Part shown: piece after piece, positions 37,643-43,327 of the stretch
Layout: every line of letters starts with the position of its first letter
How positions within the stretch are numbered: position 1 is the first letter of the stretch
Source: an uncultured Oscillospiraceae bacterium
GTDB taxonomy: Bacteria > Bacillota > Clostridia > Oscillospirales > Oscillospiraceae
Direction of reading: 5' to 3'
Assembly: GCA_947626495.1 (NCBI GenBank)
Contig: CANQSJ010000002.1
Coordinates: 62,001 to 126,000, forward strand
DNA length: 64,000 nt
Notes under the pieces: generated by a model
Database searches by the model: none
Told to the model about the DNA's origin: nothing
The model's input: the letters and a program-made list of their open reading frames with translations, nothing else
Program-made: the position numbers and the translations under genes

Positions 37643-39604
37643 ATGATCATCAAGAAAATGACCGCGTGGTTCGGCACGCTGGAGGGGGCCAGTCTGGAGC
37701 TGGGCGAGGGACTGAACGTCATCTACGCCCCCAACGAGAGCGGCAAATCCACCTGGTGCGCCTTCCTGCGGGCCATGCTCTACGGCGTGGACACCGGCCA
37801 GCGGGCCCGGCAGGGCCAGCAGCCGGACAAAAAGAAATATCTGCCCTGGAGCGGCGCGCCCATGTCCGGGAGCATGGACGTGCTCACGGCGGACGGGCCC
37901 GTGACGCTGCGCCGATGGACAGAGCGGGCGGGCCAGCCCATGCAGGCCTTCTCCGCCTCCGTCACCGGCACGGACGACCCCGCGCCGGGACTCACGGCGG
38001 AAAACGCCGGGGACGTACTCACCGGCGCGCCCCGGGAGGTGTTCGAGCGCAGCGCCTTCATCCACCAGGCGGGCCTGGGGGTGACCCCCGACCCGGAGCT
38101 GGAAAAGCGGTTCGCCGCCATCGTGTCCGCCGGGGACGAGGAGCAGTCCTTCTCCGAGACGGACGGGCGGCTGCGCGCCTGGCTGCGCCGGCGCCGTTCC
38201 GGCCGCCGGGGCGCCATCCCGGAGCTGGAGGGAGAGATGGCGCGGGTGCGCCAGGAGCTGGACCGGATCGGCGCCGCCGGCCGGGAGGTGGACGCCCTGG
38301 ACCGGGAGCTAGCCGCCGCCCTGGAGCGGCAGACGGAGCTGACCCGCCGGATGGAGGCCGCCCGGGAGGCGGCCCGGAAAAAAGCCCTGGCGGACTATGG
38401 GGCCGCCAAGGCGGAGACGGCCGACTGCGCCGCGGCCCTGGCCGCCGCCCAGGAGGAGAAGATCCGGGCGGTGGAGGCGGTGAAGGGGACCGTGTTCGGC
38501 GCCATGGGTCCGGAGAAGGCAGCCGATCAGGTCCGGCAGGACCTGGACGCGCTGGAGGATACGGCGGCCGCCATCGCGGCCCTGCCCAAAAATTGGACGC
38601 CCGCCCTCCTTCCGGCCGCCGCCGGGGCGCTGTGGCTGGGGGCGGCGTCGGCGTTTTGGCCGGACCCCGTCGCCATCGCCGCCGGCGGGGCGGTGTTTGC
38701 GGCGGCGGCCGTGGGAGCCTGGCTGTGGCGGCGGCGCATTCTGGACCGGCGGCAGGCCCTGGAGGCGGCGGAGCGGCAGATCCTGGACGGCTATGACGCG
38801 GCGGGCCCGGAGGACATCCGGGACCGGCTGGAGGAATATGAGACCCTGTGGGCGGACGCCCATGACGCGGCCCGGGCCCAGGTCCGGGCGGAAAAGGCCC
38901 TGGAGGCGGCGCAGGTCCGCCAGAAGGCGGCGGAGGAGCCCGTCCTGAACGGGCTGGACTTCGTCCGCGGGGACAGCGAGGCGGCCCGGGCCTCCCGGGC
39001 GGTGACCGAGGGACAGGCCCGGATCGATTCCCTGCGGGAGCGGCGGGCCATGGCCGAGGGCCGGGTCCGGGCCCTGGGGGACGAGATGGTGCTGCGCTCG
39101 GAGCTGGAGCGCCAGAGCGCCCGGCGGGAGGAGCTGGAGCGCCAGGAGCAGGCCCTGCTTCTGGCGGTGGAGAGCATGGAGCGGGCGGATATGGGCCTGC
39201 GGGAGAAATTCTCCCCCATGGTGGCGGACCGGGCGGCGGCGCTGTTCGCCCGGCTCACCGGCGGCCGCTACGACGAGATCACCCTGGCCCGGGACCTGTC
39301 CGCCAAGACCCGGCGGGCCGGGGACGCGGTGGGCCGGGAGTCGGATTACCTGTCCCAGGGGGCGCGGGATCAGCTGTATCTGGCGCTGCGGCTGGCGGTG
39401 TGCGAGCTGGCGCTGCCGCCGGAGCAGGGCTGCCCCCTCATCCTGGACGACGCCCTCACCGCCTTCGACCAGGAGCGGATGGAGCGGGCGCTGGCCCTTT
39501 TGAAGGAGCAGTCCGCCGCCCGGCAGGTGCTGCTGTTCTCCTGCCACGAGCGGGAGGCGGCGTACTTCGCCGGCGACGGCGATGTGAGAAAGATCAGCCT
39601 GTGA
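37643..39604 (+). CDS. SbcC/YhaN-like ATPase
   Basis: ATG 37643 follows AAAGGAG and gives 653 residues. The P-loop APNESGKSTW (about residues 30-39) opens the first ATPase half. A long Ala/Arg/Glu-rich coiled coil (about 185-520) is interrupted by two predicted membrane-like hydrophobic segments (about 315-365), a feature of YhaN rather than classical SbcC. The C-terminal half has the signature-like SQGARDQLYLALRLA and Walker B LILDDALTAFD. It likely works with the adjacent SbcD-like nuclease. The hydrophobic pair suggests membrane attachment, an inference from composition. Confidence 0.87.
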   Translation: MIIKKMTAWFGTLEGASLELGEGLNVIYAPNESGKSTWCAFLRAMLYGVDTGQRARQGQQPDKKKYLPWSGAPMSGSMDVLTADGPVTLRRWTERAGQPMQAFSASVTGTDDPAPGLTAENAGDVLTGAPREVFERSAFIHQAGLGVTPDPELEKRFAAIVSAGDEEQSFSETDGRLRAWLRRRRSGRRGAIPELEGEMARVRQELDRIGAAGREVDALDRELAAALERQTELTRRMEAAREAARKKALADYGAAKAETADCAAALAAAQEEKIRAVEAVKGTVFGAMGPEKAADQVRQDLDALEDTAAAIAALPKNWTPALLPAAAGALWLGAASAFWPDPVAIAAGGAVFAAAAVGAWLWRRRILDRRQALEAAERQILDGYDAAGPEDIRDRLEEYETLWADAHDAARAQVRAEKALEAAQVRQKAAEEPVLNGLDFVRGDSEAARASRAVTEGQARIDSLRERRAMAEGRVRALGDEMVLRSELERQSARREELERQEQALLLAVESMERADMGLREKFSPMVADRAAALFARLTGGRYDEITLARDLSAKTRRAGDAVGRESDYLSQGARDQLYLALRLAVCELALPPEQGCPLILDDALTAFDQERMERALALLKEQSAARQVLLFSCHEREAAYFAGDGDVRKISL

Positions 39605-39629
39605 GCGCGGCGGTAAGAACACCGCCTTG

Positions 39630-39746
39630 AAAGCCTCCCCTGTGCAAGGGGAGGTGCCGAGCGGAGTAAGGCGGAGGGGTTGTCGTACCCGAGAGAACAA
39701 TCCCTCAGGCAGCGCTCCGCGCTGCCAGCCCCCTTTGCACAAGGGC
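39630..39746. mobile_element. 117-bp inverted-repeat element (MITE-like), empty copy
   Basis: The left end AAAGCCTCCCCTGTGCAAGG... matches the element at 41897. The right end, read in reverse complement (GGCCCTTGTGCAAAGGGGGC), is an imperfect inverted copy of the left end. Inner boundaries GGAGGGGTTGT and AACAATCCCTC are also inverted. Only about 15 bases separate the two ends, so it carries no gene. It sits in the gap after the SbcC-like gene and ends 5 bases before the TAAGGAG site of the next gene. Confidence 0.75.
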
Positions 39747-39764
39747 CATATAAGGAGCATAATC

Positions 39765-40871
39765 ATGTATGCATTTGTGGTACCCTGTCTGTTCGGACTG
39801 GAGGGGCCCTGCGCCGACGAGCTGCGGCGGATGGGCCTGGAGGATGTCCGGGCGGAGAACGGGCGCGTCCGCTTTTCCGGGGACGGGGCGTGCTGCGCCA
39901 AGGCCAATCTCCGCCTCCGCACCGGGGAGCGGGTGCTGCTCTCCCTGGGCAGCTTTGAGGCCGCCACCTTCGACGCCCTCTTTGAGGGCGTGCGGGCCCT
40001 GCCCCTGGAGGACTACATCCCCAAGGGCGGCCAGTTCCCCGTGAAGGGCTACTGCCTGGACTCGGCGCTGCACTCGGTGCCGGACTGCCAGCGGATCATC
40101 AAAAAGGCCGCCGCCACCCGTCTAGGCGGGGCGTACCGGGCCGAGTGGCTGCCGGAGGACGGGGCCATGTACCAGCTGCAGTTCTCCCTGGTCCGGGATC
40201 GGGCGGAGATCTATCTGGACACCTCCGGCGCCCCCCTCTACAAGCGGGGCTACCGGCCGGGCCACGTGGCCGCGCCCCTGCGGGAGACGCTGGCGGCGGC
40301 CATGGTGGGCCTCGCCCGCTACCGGGGCCGGGACGCCCTGTGGGACCCCTTCTGCGGCAGCGGCACCATCCCCATTGAGGCGGCCCTCATCGCCCGGAAC
40401 CGGGCCCCGGGGCTGAACCGGACCTTCGCCGCCCAGAAGTGGGGCTTCATCCCCCGGGCCGCCTGGTCCGACGCCGCGGAGGAGGCCCGGAGCCTGGAAT
40501 ACCGCGGGGAGTACCACATCTTCGCCTCCGACATCGACCCCCGGGCCGTGTCCCTGTCCCGGGAGAACGCCCGGCGGGCCGGCGTGGCCGGCGACATCAC
40601 CTTTGCACTGGCCGACGCCTGCACCGCCCCCGCCCCCTGGGAAAGGGGCGTGATCGTGTGCAACCCGCCCTACGGGGAGCGGATGGGCGAGCGGCAGGAA
40701 GCCCAGGCCCTTTACCGGGACATGGGCCGGACGCTGGGCGCGATGGCGGACTGGAAGCAGTACGTCATCTCCTCCGAGCCGGACTTTGAGCGGTATTACG
40801 GCCGAAAGGCCGCCAAGCGCCGCAAGCTCTACAACGGCATGATCCAGTGCTGGCTGAACATGTACTGGTGA
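39765..40871 (+). CDS. THUMP-domain class I SAM RNA methyltransferase (RlmL-N/YpsC-like)
   Basis: ATG 39765 is preferred because TAAGGAG lies 8 bases upstream and the family N-terminus starts there; the protein has 368 residues. A THUMP domain (about 40-155) precedes a Rossmann methyltransferase domain with DPFCGSGTIPIEAALIA (about 192-208), ASDIDPRAVSLSRENA and the catalytic NPPYGERMG (about 300). Such enzymes make m2G2445-type modifications in 23S rRNA. The inverted-repeat element lies directly upstream and probably forms part of its leader. Confidence 0.9.
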   Translation: MYAFVVPCLFGLEGPCADELRRMGLEDVRAENGRVRFSGDGACCAKANLRLRTGERVLLSLGSFEAATFDALFEGVRALPLEDYIPKGGQFPVKGYCLDSALHSVPDCQRIIKKAAATRLGGAYRAEWLPEDGAMYQLQFSLVRDRAEIYLDTSGAPLYKRGYRPGHVAAPLRETLAAAMVGLARYRGRDALWDPFCGSGTIPIEAALIARNRAPGLNRTFAAQKWGFIPRAAWSDAAEEARSLEYRGEYHIFASDIDPRAVSLSRENARRAGVAGDITFALADACTAPAPWERGVIVCNPPYGERMGERQEAQALYRDMGRTLGAMADWKQYVISSEPDFERYYGRKAAKRRKLYNGMIQCWLNMYW

Positions 40872-40918
40872 GCGCGGCGGGGCAAAGTATCAGGATCTGA
40901 CCGGAGAGGAGCGGAACA

Positions 40919-41779
40919 ATGGACATTCGGATCGCGCTGCTGCAGCTGCTGCCCTGCGGCGGTCTGCAGGAGCAGCTGGAAAAGGGCCTCGACGCCTGCA
41001 AAAAGGCGAAGGCGCTGGGGGCGGATATCGCCCTGTTCCCGGAGATGTGGAGCGACGGCTACGCCCTGCCCCAGGACGAGCAGACCCTCCGGGCGCTGGC
41101 GGTGGCCGCCGACAGCCCCTTCGTCAACGCCTTCGGCGCCCTGGCCCGGGAGCTTGAGATGGCCATCGCGGTCACCTTCCTGGAGAGCTGCGAGCCAAAG
41201 CCCCGGAACGCGGCGGTCCTCTTCGACCGCCATGGCCGGCGGCTGCTGCACTATGCCAAGGTCCACACCTGCGCCTTCGATCTGGAGCGGGTGCTGTCCC
41301 CCGGGGAGGATTTTTTCGTGGCCGATCTGGACGTGGGGCCCGCCACGGTGAAGGTGGGCTGCATGATCTGCTTCGACCGGGAATTCCCCGAGAGCGCCCG
41401 GCTGCTGATGCTGAAGGGCGCCGAGCTGGTCCTGGCCCCCAACGCCTGCCCCATGGAGATCAACCGGCTGGCGGCGCTGCGCACCAGGGCCTACGAAAAC
41501 ATGATGGCCATCGCCACCTGCAACTATCCGGCGGGCCAGCCGGACTGCAACGGCCGCTCCACCCTGTTCGACGGTATCGCGTGGCTGCAGGAGGAGCCCT
41601 GGACGCGGGATATGTGCGCCTTTGAGGCGCCGGAGGAGGAAGGGGTCTACATCGCCGAACTGGACCTGGACCAGCTGCGCCGGTATCGGGAGCGGGAGAT
41701 CATGGGGGACAAATACCGCCGTCCGGAGACGTACGGCCTGCTGGCCGGGGAGACACGGGGACCGGTCCCGGCCCGGTGA
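40919..41779 (+). CDS. Carbon-nitrogen hydrolase (nitrilase superfamily)
   Basis: This 286-residue protein carries the Glu-Lys-Cys catalytic triad of the superfamily: Glu in LFPEMWSDGY (about 41), Lys in HYAKVHTCAF (about 118) and Cys in GCMICFDREFPESARL (about 155). Members hydrolyse amides such as omega-amidates, N-carbamoyl compounds or deaminated glutathione. The specific substrate is not evident. GGAGAGGAG precedes the ATG; the gene follows the methyltransferase by 47 bases and may be co-transcribed with it. Confidence 0.88.
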   Translation: MDIRIALLQLLPCGGLQEQLEKGLDACKKAKALGADIALFPEMWSDGYALPQDEQTLRALAVAADSPFVNAFGALARELEMAIAVTFLESCEPKPRNAAVLFDRHGRRLLHYAKVHTCAFDLERVLSPGEDFFVADLDVGPATVKVGCMICFDREFPESARLLMLKGAELVLAPNACPMEINRLAALRTRAYENMMAIATCNYPAGQPDCNGRSTLFDGIAWLQEEPWTRDMCAFEAPEEEGVYIAELDLDQLRRYREREIMGDKYRRPETYGLLAGETRGPVPAR

Positions 41780-41896
41780 AGAGCGGCCGCGCCCCTGGCC
41801 CTGGGCTTCCGGTGCGTGGGGGAGTACATGTGCTGCAAAACGGCGCTGTGACCGGCGGCACGACAGATCAGGAGTTGTAAAAGTCACCGCTAGGCT

Positions 41897-42340
41897 AAAG
41901 CCTCCCCTGTGCAAGGGGAGGTGCCGAGCGAAGCGAGGCGGAGGGGTTGTTATGGAGCGAAAGTACAACAAAGCCCTCGTGTCAAGGGCCAGAGAACTGC
42001 GCCGGAACATGACGAAAGAGGAGCGACGCCTCTGGTATGATTTCCTTCGGGGATATCCCATTCTCTTCTCAAGGCAAAAAGTCCTGGGAAGATATATCGT
42101 TGATTTTTACTGCGCCCAAGCAAAGCTGGTCATCGAATTGGATGGCTCCCAGCATTTTGAGCCGGATGCTATGGTGAAAGATGCTGATAGAACGAGCTTT
42201 TTGGCTGGATATGGCCTGACGGTCATAAGAATACCAAATAATGAGATAGGTAAGAACTTTGACGGCGTTTGCGAATACATAGATGGTGTGGTAAAACAAT
42301 CCCTCAGTCAGCCTCGCTGACAGCCCCCTTTACACAAGTG
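41897..42340 (+). mobile_element. Inverted-repeat element carrying a DUF559 endonuclease gene
   Basis: The left end (41897-41950) is nearly identical to the left end of the 39630 element. The right end (about 42296-42340: AACAATCCCTCAGTCAGCCT then GACAGCCCCCTTTACACAAG) is an imperfect inverted copy of the left end. Between them lies a single 122-codon gene whose start is one base after the left end and whose stop lies inside the right end. The insert is AT-rich compared with its surroundings. It looks like a gene-carrying relative of the empty 117-bp copy. Confidence 0.75.
41952..42320 (+). CDS. DUF559 endonuclease-domain protein
   Basis: This 122-residue protein has the Vsr/PD-(D/E)XK-like DUF559 core: RELRRNMTKEERRLWYDFLR (about 14-33), then QKVLGRYIVDFYCAQAKLVI and ELDGSQHF with candidate catalytic Asp51, Glu62 and Asp64. 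Vsr-like enzymes nick DNA next to mismatches or defined sites; DUF559 proteins themselves are not biochemically settled. The gene is enclosed by inverted ends shared with an empty element nearby. Its last codons are formed by the right-end repeat. Codon use is more AT-rich than neighbouring genes, consistent with mobility. Confidence 0.85.
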   Translation: MERKYNKALVSRARELRRNMTKEERRLWYDFLRGYPILFSRQKVLGRYIVDFYCAQAKLVIELDGSQHFEPDAMVKDADRTSFLAGYGLTVIRIPNNEIGKNFDGVCEYIDGVVKQSLSQPR

Positions 42341-42433
42341 GGCCTTTCAATATTGTGTCGCTTTCAGCGACAAATTCCCATTTCTCGGGGCAAGGCGGGA
42401 ACGATAGAGGCTTGATCGGAAAGGAGAGGGGAG

Positions 42434-43327
42434 ATGTTTGTGAAAAAAAGGCTCATGCAGGTAGTACGGACGCTGCGGTGGAAAAACTTCCCGCTGCTGT
42501 TTCTGGCCGGGTGCGTCAACGCCTTCGGCGTGACGATCTTTTTGGCGCCAGTGAAGCTGTATGACAGCGGCATCTCCGGCACGTCCATCCTGCTTAGCCA
42601 GATCACCCCGGAGAAGCTGAGCCTTTCCCTGTTCCTGCTGCTTTTGAACATCCCCCTTTTTCTGTTCGGGGCCAAAAAGCTGGGCGCGGCCTTCACCGTC
42701 TACTCCCTGTTCGCGGTGGCGGTGTACGCGGGCGCGGCCTGGCTCATCACCGACGTGCTGCCCATCGACGTGACCATGGCCTCTCCCCTGGCGGGGCAGG
42801 ACCTGCTGCTGTGCGCCCTGTTCGGCGGGGTCATATCCGGCGCGGGCAGCGGCCTCACCATCCGTAGCGGCGGAGCCATCGACGGGATAGACGTGCTGGC
42901 GGTGATCTTCGCCAAGGGGCTGAACATCACTGTGGGCACCTTCGTGATGGTCTACAACGTGCTTTTGTACATCGTGTGCGGCTGCGTCGTCCACAGCTGG
43001 ATATTGCCGCTTTACTCCATCGTCACCTACGCGGCGGGGCTGAAGACCGTGGACTTCATCGTGGAGGGCTTCGACCGGTCCAAGGAAGTGCTCATCGTCA
43101 CCGATAAACCCAAGCCCATCAGCGACGCGCTCATTGACGCCTTCGGCTGCGGCACCACCAAGATCGCCGCCGTGGGCGGCTACTCCAACGCGAACAAGAC
43201 CGTCATCTATTTCGTGGTCAACCGCTTCCAGATCGCCCGGATGCGCAACATCGTCCGCCAGATCGACCCGAGGGCGTTCATGACCATCAGCGACGTGGCG
43301 GACGTGTTCAAGAACAACGACCGGTGA
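42434..43327 (+). CDS. YitT-family membrane protein (DUF161 + DUF2179)
   Basis: This 297-residue protein has five or six hydrophobic helices (about 15-200) with the family signatures GVTIFLAPVKLYDSGISGTS and GAGSGLTIRSGGAIDGIDVLAV. A cytoplasmic DUF2179 domain follows (about 215-295; VLIVTDKPKPISDALIDAFG, GGYSNANKTVIYFVVNRFQ). The family is widespread in Firmicutes and its transport role is unproven. AAAGGAGAGGGG precedes the ATG. It lies just upstream of the groESL promoter, on the same strand. Confidence 0.88.
   Translation: MFVKKRLMQVVRTLRWKNFPLLFLAGCVNAFGVTIFLAPVKLYDSGISGTSILLSQITPEKLSLSLFLLLLNIPLFLFGAKKLGAAFTVYSLFAVAVYAGAAWLITDVLPIDVTMASPLAGQDLLLCALFGGVISGAGSGLTIRSGGAIDGIDVLAVIFAKGLNITVGTFVMVYNVLLYIVCGCVVHSWILPLYSIVTYAAGLKTVDFIVEGFDRSKEVLIVTDKPKPISDALIDAFGCGTTKIAAVGGYSNANKTVIYFVVNRFQIARMRNIVRQIDPRAFMTISDVADVFKNNDR

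Follow-up and report, generated by a model that had tools for sequence, protein, structure and literature searches.

The two elements in the window and the DUF559 protein

The stretch of DNA analysed here (64,000 nt from an uncultured Oscillospiraceae bacterium; hereafter, the window) carries two short elements bounded by related inverted ends, one of which holds a DUF559 gene while the other is empty. Their parts are as follows:

39630..39683, + strand: left end of the empty element, delimited by comparison with 41897–41950
39684..39695, + strand: geneless 12-nt centre of the empty element
39696..39747, + strand: right end of the empty element, delimited by sequence comparison
41897..41950, + strand: left end of the DUF559-bearing element, loop type GTGCA; the family is aligned in A1 and modelled as R1
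41901..41921, + strand: first hairpin of this left end, CCTCCCCT / GTGCA / AGGGGAGG, read from the sequence
41924..41939, + strand: second-hairpin region of this left end, of free sequence and with a shape conserved across the family
41940..41946, + strand: third block of this left end, GGAGGGG, mirror of the G arm GGGGAGG
41952..42320, + strand: DUF559 (PF04480) gene, 122 aa, Pfam E-value 7.9e-31
42295..42345, + strand: right end of the DUF559 copy, made of third block CCCTC, second hairpin and first hairpin

The earlier note on this DNA had described both copies, and its description stands: the left ends are near-identical (94% over the 54 nt of 39630–39683 and 41897–41950) and spaced by 2267 nt, the right ends are imperfect inversions of them (left and right align over 56 columns in the DUF559 copy and 51 in the empty one), the copy at 39630 has nothing but its 12-nt geneless centre between its ends, and the 122-codon gene begins one base past the left end. 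Its wording of an "AT-rich" gene is correct in relative terms, because the GC content of the gene is 0.474, against 0.647 for the window. The right ends have AACAATCCCTCAG.CAGC in common (at 39696 and 42295), both carry AACAATCCCTC, and a 27-nt piece of them shows 89% identity (39717 vs. 42312), while GGAGGGGTTGT has exact matches only at 39673 and 41940 over both strands of the whole window. In the DUF559 copy, the last codons and the stop codon of the gene fall within the right end, the first hairpin of which is degenerate (CCCCCTTTACACAAGTGGGCC) and is found intact in the sister genome G021 (ACACAAGGGGGCC). When folded as DNA, the 126 nt from 39625 to 39750 reach an energy below that of 200 out of 200 shuffles (z = −3.76). 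The second ORF lying wholly inside the DUF559 element is a 76-aa antisense frame; apart from this frame, the Pfam scan of the full copy gave DUF559 as the only family-matched gene and no transposase. Rfam, a search covering its listed structured-RNA families, gave no match up to an E-value of 1 in 39300–42700. A location within an intron or an intein was rejected, the DUF559 gene lying in its own ORF between genes and the same region being devoid of Rfam matches.

The window protein reaches 106.6 bits on the Pfam DUF559 profile (cut-off 20.6; profile positions 3–105 of 109), and DUF559 and MTES_1575 are the only Pfam families that it matches. Across 36 sequences, D51, D64, H68 and D77 are among the invariant residues, and E24 and E62 are near-invariant. 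Judging by codon comparisons, the gene family is under strong purifying selection, with a median dN/dS of 0.094 and a maximum of 0.26 (316 non-independent pairs, from loci that include duplicates). The informative profile matches in the PDB are 3hrl, an "Endonuclease-Like Protein" (E-value 9.5e-19), and 3r3p, a "Mobile intron protein" (E-value 0.0019), which we take to be I-Bth0305I; the remaining ones, with E-values of 0.04 and above, were taken as uninformative. Weak matches to homing-endonuclease models were obtained with PHROG (E-value 3.7e-4) and PADLOC (E-value 8.5e-4), and PADLOC also returned DpdF and a methyl-directed restriction enzyme, through short parts of these larger models only. 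EDxHD enzymes are a known homing family (PMC3943268, in part; here and below, "in part" marks a source available as excerpts), and YcjD has been tied to Vsr through profile comparison (PMC1189080, in part). Finally, a scan of IMG/VR with a single-protein query returned eight stretches matching a pattern, none of which encoded a relative.

The family of ends and its association with DUF559 genes

An end begins on its outer side with a GC hairpin (CCTCCCCT-GTGCA-AGGGGAGG and variants), followed by TG and then by a second hairpin of free sequence, and closes on the inner side with a third block that reads GGAGGGG or GGAGGGA. This block is the mirror of the G arm of the first hairpin and not its complement (the mirror was judged across DUF559 loci). 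A regular expression gave 125 ends from the flanks of DUF559 genes, reduced to 86 distinct ends, of which 85 could be parsed, after removal of three by hand; since the expression demanded a GAGGG third block, the mirror was judged from separate mirror tests and not from this set. In 59 of the 85 parsed ends, the G arm has G as its outermost base and the third block opens with G; where the former base is C, the latter is T in 24 ends and G in 2. In an alignment of 40 ends, 96.8% of the cells are paired in helix 1 and 83.3% in helix 2, the latter with both-side changes in seven of its eight pairs; the covariation score is 0.415 vs. 0.125 in shuffled alignments, mainly through the second hairpin, and the cells changed on both sides number 107 vs. 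34 in shuffles. As read from the bases, this layout is that of the C-G*G intrastrand triplex of the boxC/PIT/TM repeats (PMC4666352, in part).

The ends recur well beyond the window, as expected of the element family imagined in the earlier note. In the window's own genome, a loose pattern of the first hairpin (at most 3 mismatches) has 43 strand matches vs. 2 for the reversed pattern, corresponding to about 22 separate places, since so nearly palindromic a hairpin matches on both strands, and the strict pattern CCCYTGTGYAARGGG has 36 exact matches vs. 0 when reversed. The covariance model R1, built partly from the window family and saturating near 74 counts per genome, recovers 42 ends at an E-value of at most 0.01 in this genome and finds ends in 59 of the 80 genomes searched, own included. 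Empty pairs (roughly 80–220 bp) and lone ends are scattered across the window's genome. Where readable, the centres of the copies mostly measure some 1–35 nt, apart from about 113 nt in L007 and L008 and the gene in L005, while L003, L021 and L024 resemble lone ends or hairpins. According to the loop of the hairpin, ends can be sorted into the types GTGYA, GCCTA, CTGACG, GTYAA and others. The 113-nt centre is a self-complementary module (predicted fold −51.7 kcal/mol), present in L008 (1555–1667) and, inverted and 93% identical, in L007 (1663–1551), and cleanly missing at the L008 site in the sister species G021. Its derivation from the DUF559 gene was rejected, no similarity longer than 10 nt having been found, and ends lying about 200 bp apart in other species may belong to the same class.

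PF04480 was detected in 33 of the 80 genomes, own included, and gave no match in the other 47, some of which are incomplete. The flanks of the clostridial genes were searched for the triplex motif (7-nt arm, at most one mismatch; a definition tuned on these loci, with controls treated alike) within at most 130 nt upstream of domain residue 9 and at most 160 nt downstream of residue 111. In the distinct set (115 genes from 130 loci, 111 with full flanks), the motif was found upstream of 73 genes, downstream of 87, on both sides of 60 and on neither side of 11; the control windows, drawn from the same loci and not matched to intergenic DNA, gave 10 of 899. The supposition that DUF559 genes elsewhere carry ends is thus borne out, 100 of these 111 clostridial loci having the motif on one side or both. 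By a rough estimate, the end-rich genomes of the genus (up to some 310 typed matches, with about 2,000 genes assumed) would have an end in any one flank for no more than about one gene in seven. An 8-nt mirror was seen upstream of 1 and downstream of 5 of 107 loci when no mismatch was tolerated, and at 60 and 42 with one mismatch, and no hairpin was found on either side in six (L035, L098, L113, L128, L132 and L137). An inverted-repeat alignment free of any motif places 86 of 104 clostridial loci above the 95% control level; the 107- and 104-locus counts contain some loci twice, the same MAGs having been retrieved by two routes, and the clostridial loci from named genomes are the best 80 of 104.

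The fit between gene and ends is often close: many of the genes have their start codon immediately after ...GGAGGG[AG]TTGT and their stop codon within the right second hairpin, and the types of the left and right ends match in 54 of the 55 distinct loci with both ends typed. Two loci stand apart, namely L035 (genome G057), in which DUF559 is part of a 799-aa open frame, and its sister L192 (G076), of 149 aa; neither has typed ends, and together they branch apart from the others in the tree. In Faecalibacterium A2-165, the gene next to mam on its upstream side encodes a DUF559 protein (PMC8836110, in part).

Outside Clostridia, we considered 19 loci spanning phages, Deinococcus, cyanobacteria and Proteobacteria: two human-gut phage records, together with 17 records hand-picked across genera among the 46 with DUF559 in a plasmid collection (the other 29 being left out), some of which are chromosomes filed as plasmids. 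The motif is present upstream of 13, downstream of 11 and on either side of 17, against 9 of 148 control windows. It was missed at E. coli KE47, where reading reveals boxC-like repeats downstream, and in Novosphingobium, because the hairpin loop is longer than the test permits. Only nine of 18 non-clostridial loci exceed the 95% control level in the motif-free test; several of the loci of these lineages have an end on one side only. In a phylum sample, DUF559 was found in 105 of 398 genomes, the 29 new loci taken from it being the best-scoring; the motif accompanies six of the seven matches of at least 84 bits (control: 1/161) and one of the 22 weaker ones (43–63 bits, in small or large proteins).

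Several of these distant loci deserve a brief comment. In three Deinococcus species, the DUF559 gene occupies different positions within the hpa gene cluster. Novosphingobium and Sphingobium (L155, L159) share an end grammar with clostridial loci (L091, L123) across phyla, for example GGGGAGGTGGCA-hairpin-TGACGGAGGGG and GGGGAGGGGGACC-hairpin-GGTGGAGGGG. In Neisseria gonorrhoeae (L143), a 72-nt repeat precedes the DUF559 gene and is contained in three tandem 281-bp units downstream. The DUF559 genes of three cyanobacterial plasmids (L145, L150, L158) adjoin DUF1156 or BREX pglX genes.

Co-variation, site differences and the E. coli repeats

On a tree of 132 DUF559 proteins (70 typed and 62 untyped; the tree is rough, being based on few columns), the four end types require 4 changes for a minimum of 3, whereas shuffled labels require 22.8 on average and never as few as 4 in 200 shuffles. 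Three genomes (G033, G019, G035) harbour two DUF559 clades each, and each clade keeps its own end type, so the match between type and clade does not merely reflect host descent. G032 also possesses two clades, its locus L041 being typed on neither side.

The number of ends follows the presence of the gene. At least 20 ends are found in 26 of the 33 genomes with DUF559 vs. 5 of the 47 without, and, within the genus of the window, in 16 of 17 vs. 3 of 18 (p = 4e-6), a broken gene (G014) and weak or fused matches (G049, G057, G078) being counted as presences. Type by type, CTGACG ends number 86–165 in the five genomes with a DUF559 of the CTGACG clade and at most 82 in the other 30 of the genus (p = 1e-4), while GTGYA ends number 25–123 in the eleven genomes with a GTGYA-clade DUF559 (genus, n = 35; p = 1.3e-4) and at most 9 in the other 24, except G009, G012, G034, G018 and G014 (33–167). 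Across types, GTGYA ends are also higher with a CTGACG-clade DUF559 (p = 0.018) and CTGACG ends are borderline with a GTGYA-clade one (p = 0.05), so that type specificity is clear but not clean; G009 has 167 GTGYA matches, yet only a CTGACG-clade DUF559. Five drafts (82–96% complete) hold many ends with no DUF559 found: G012 (82 CTGACG, 131 GTGYA), G018 (28 and 70, respectively) G015 (23, by the model), G040 (50) and G044 (56); a search for DUF559 remnants in these five returned nothing but a match of E-value 0.38 in G044. Since end type tracks DUF559 clade and copy number tracks DUF559 presence, independent variation of the ends, one of the outcomes that the earlier note had named as refuting its proposal, is not what is seen.

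Individual sites also differ between genomes. A nitrilase query matched 15 of the 35 genomes of the genus, seven of which were read by eye. The site downstream of the nitrilase is occupied by the full element in G000 (own genome) and G021; in G009, G034 and G012, it carries either ends that lack DUF559 or single ends of another type; no end is visible by reading in G001 and G003. Among 19 further sites of G000, 18 were located in the sister species G021 (L002 was not) and classified by reading alignments. Two carry the same element (L018, as well as L008 apart from its clean 113-nt module), seven carry another second hairpin at one end or both (L001, L010, L013, L014, L015, L017, L019), four are without an end in G021 (L003, a lone end in G000, L012, L016, and L021, a lone hairpin in G000), four display other arrangements (L007, L009, L011, L024) and one was left unclassified (L006). 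In six comparisons (L001/L010/L013/L015/L017/L019 vs. L213/L207/L200/L208/L210/L209), the second hairpins are wholly different and the flanks conserved. At the site of the empty element of the window (39630–39747), the element of G021 likewise has different second hairpins. Hairpin swaps with conserved flanks would fit a break-induced exchange between copies.

Near-identical full copies were not found within any one genome, the best of 23 pairs from 12 genomes reaching 0.88 nucleotide identity (these are the genomes with at least two DUF559 genes, and a few further DUF559 genes of theirs lie outside the 23 pairs). Full copies look like one resident gene per type, and the lack of near-identical full pairs is consistent with a single resident nuclease of each type acting on many empty pairs. 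The earlier note had suggested that the DUF559 protein may spread both full and empty copies, as a minimal family without transposase. Frequent ends, ends at DUF559 loci and their co-variation support a DUF559-associated transposase-free family with full and empty copies; the other half of the suggestion, that full copies spread like empty ones, is not supported, given the identities just mentioned.

The boxC (intrastrand-triplex) repeats of E. coli, discovered in the 1990s and including one motif that occurs in more than 260 genomes, mark variable sites and are associated with local genome instability, their mechanism and origin having been left open (PMC4666352, in part). According to Holder et al., mobility genes and remnants of transposases or integrases were never found near TM sites, and the available part of their paper makes no mention of DUF559 (PMC4666352, in part). 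ycjD, the DUF559 gene of E. coli, matches 3365 of 5426 genomes, with a median of one place per genome, and a boxC query matches 5357 of 5426, with a median of 15 places (range 1–29). In K-12, the boxC/TM listed as TM number 9 in Table 1 of PMC4666352 (in part) lies 168 nt past the ycjD stop. The triplex test flags nothing on either side of K-12 ycjD, this boxC being missed because its stem contains a mismatch; its presence is thus taken from the published table and from reading, which showed no repeat across the gene from it. Between fepB and entC, an inverted boxC pair lies within 186 nt that are inserted in K-12 and missing from strain OkiPb01690; a query for this region matches 5375 genomes, 2752 of which hold at least 80% of it, and the 30 matches listed comprise 15 full ones, 14 shorter by about 186 nt and one on a plasmid. 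Between alx and sstT, there are two boxC in K-12 and one in strain P19_598. No clear target-site duplication was seen by reading at fepB-entC or at the G000/G021 sites. Finally, ycjD has been placed in phylogroups A, B1 and C as well as in ST69 and ST182 (PMC12817139, in part), a distribution that would leave O157:H7 without ycjD, yet five O157:H7 records among the matches listed have 12 boxC places each.

Interpretation and comparison with known systems

In our reading, the DUF559-bearing element is probably a full, resident copy from a selfish repeat system with two parts, namely paired inverted ends of triplex type and a small DUF559/YcjD nuclease encoded between them. This reading builds on observations made at the level of sequence: the pairing of gene and ends, the co-variation of type and clade, the correlation with copy number, the site differences and the purifying selection. 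From these, we infer that DUF559 recognises and cuts ends of its own type. Briefly, the nuclease would recognise a folded or triplex-prone end of its type and cut at or near it, after which the host would repair the break using another copy; such a cycle of cut and repair would spread empty pairs, swap second hairpins and only rarely copy the gene. A lone PD-(D/E)XK nuclease is not expected to join strands, which makes a homing-like route likelier than classical transposition. The scheme would work like the one proposed for REP/TnpA-REP, with a Vsr-like nuclease in place of the HuH transposase and a chemistry akin to that of homing endonucleases.

At face value, the same arrangement might arise if something else drove the spread of the repeats, such as an unknown transposase or, at hairpins, replication slippage and recombination, with DUF559 being a homing gene that invades the centre of existing pairs. 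The gene does lie in the centre, a place taken by the unrelated 113-nt module in L008 and, inverted, in L007, and this module is cleanly missing from G021 at the L008 site; the protein weakly resembles homing endonucleases (PHROG 3.7e-4, PADLOC 8.5e-4, 3r3p 0.0019) and many ends without DUF559 are found in some genomes. However, the loop type of the outer hairpin tracks the DUF559 clade and the number of ends of a type tracks the presence of DUF559 of that type, two correlations that an invader need not cause, unless co-conversion brings its own ends along, which is why we hold this account to be unlikely. Distinctly improbable, in our opinion, is a role in host maintenance, in which the ends would be useful or harmful to the cell (as terminators or as replication-blocking triplexes) and DUF559 a repair nuclease that processes them and whose gene is kept nearby. 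Strong purifying selection, the link between boxC/TM loci and local genome instability in E. coli (PMC4666352, in part) and the occurrence of ycjD in 3365 of 5426 E. coli genomes at a median of one place would agree with such a role, but it explains neither the position of the gene between two matching ends nor its differing positions in the hpa cluster of three Deinococcus species, and 47 of the 80 relatives, some incomplete, have no DUF559 match. As for a restriction-like defence nuclease, with repeats merely marking integration hot spots, the BREX pglX or DUF1156 genes adjoining three cyanobacterial copies and the PADLOC matches to DpdF and to a methyl-directed restriction enzyme might evoke it, but these matches span only short parts of larger models and the matching typed ends are left unexplained, so that we find it hardly credible.

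Returning to a nuclease that serves its own ends, the boxC (PIT) repeats of E. coli and YcjD would, by inference, belong to the same class. A broader proposal, which we advance tentatively as quite possible and not yet as probable, is that DUF559/YcjD nucleases define a class of mobile palindromic repeats in bacteria that is free of transposases, each clade recognising and spreading its own triplex-prone ends. If so, boxC/PIT, the GC-rich palindromes of cyanobacteria, Deinococcus and Alphaproteobacteria, and the clostridial repeats would be one system, a large protein family of unknown function would gain one, a lone PD-(D/E)XK nuclease with matching folded ends would be able to spread short repeats, and the problem posed by REPs would have a second, unrelated solution. 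Through the linkage with ycjD, the question of how boxC arose can be put to the test in E. coli K-12 by way of a single gene. In the open-access literature, we found no publication linking DUF559 to these repeats, which does not prove that none exists.

RIME, in rhizobia, and the GC-rich palindromes of cyanobacteria are named families of repeats; a likeness is seen in that the DUF559 genes of Shinella and cyanobacteria are flanked by GC hairpin repeats. As in MITEs, short non-coding copies share inverted ends with a coding copy, but neither a transposase nor a clear target-site duplication was found in the DUF559 elements. EDxHD homing endonucleases (I-Bth0305I) may be distantly related in sequence, via the weak 3r3p match, whereas DUF559 is flanked by dispersed inverted repeats and, by the tests made, lies in neither an intron nor an intein. 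The likeness to boxC/PIT/TM extends to the C arm, the G arm and the mirrored third G block (7-nt arm, at most one mismatch), as well as to inverted pairs of two types that are intergenic and strain-variable (PMC4666352, in part). The second "loop" of the clostridial ends is a hairpin of about 15–30 nt, in contrast to the 3-nt loop of the E. coli motif; under the ITxF rule, which requires both loops to measure 1–6 nt (PMC4666352, in part), the clostridial first loop, of 5 nt, qualifies and the second fails. Finally, REPs are thought to be non-autonomous and mobilised by TnpA-REP, enzyme and repeat co-evolving (PMC8266576, in part). The window enzyme differs in being, by the Pfam scan, a DUF559 protein and not a HuH/Y1 transposase, and the DUF559-associated ends differ in having two hairpins and a mirror block. 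What the two have in common is that, just as REP/TnpA-REP (RAYT, "REPtrons") unites high-copy palindromic repeats with an associated nuclease (PMC8266576, in part), the DUF559 gene is flanked by dispersed palindromic repeats, and enzyme and repeat co-vary.
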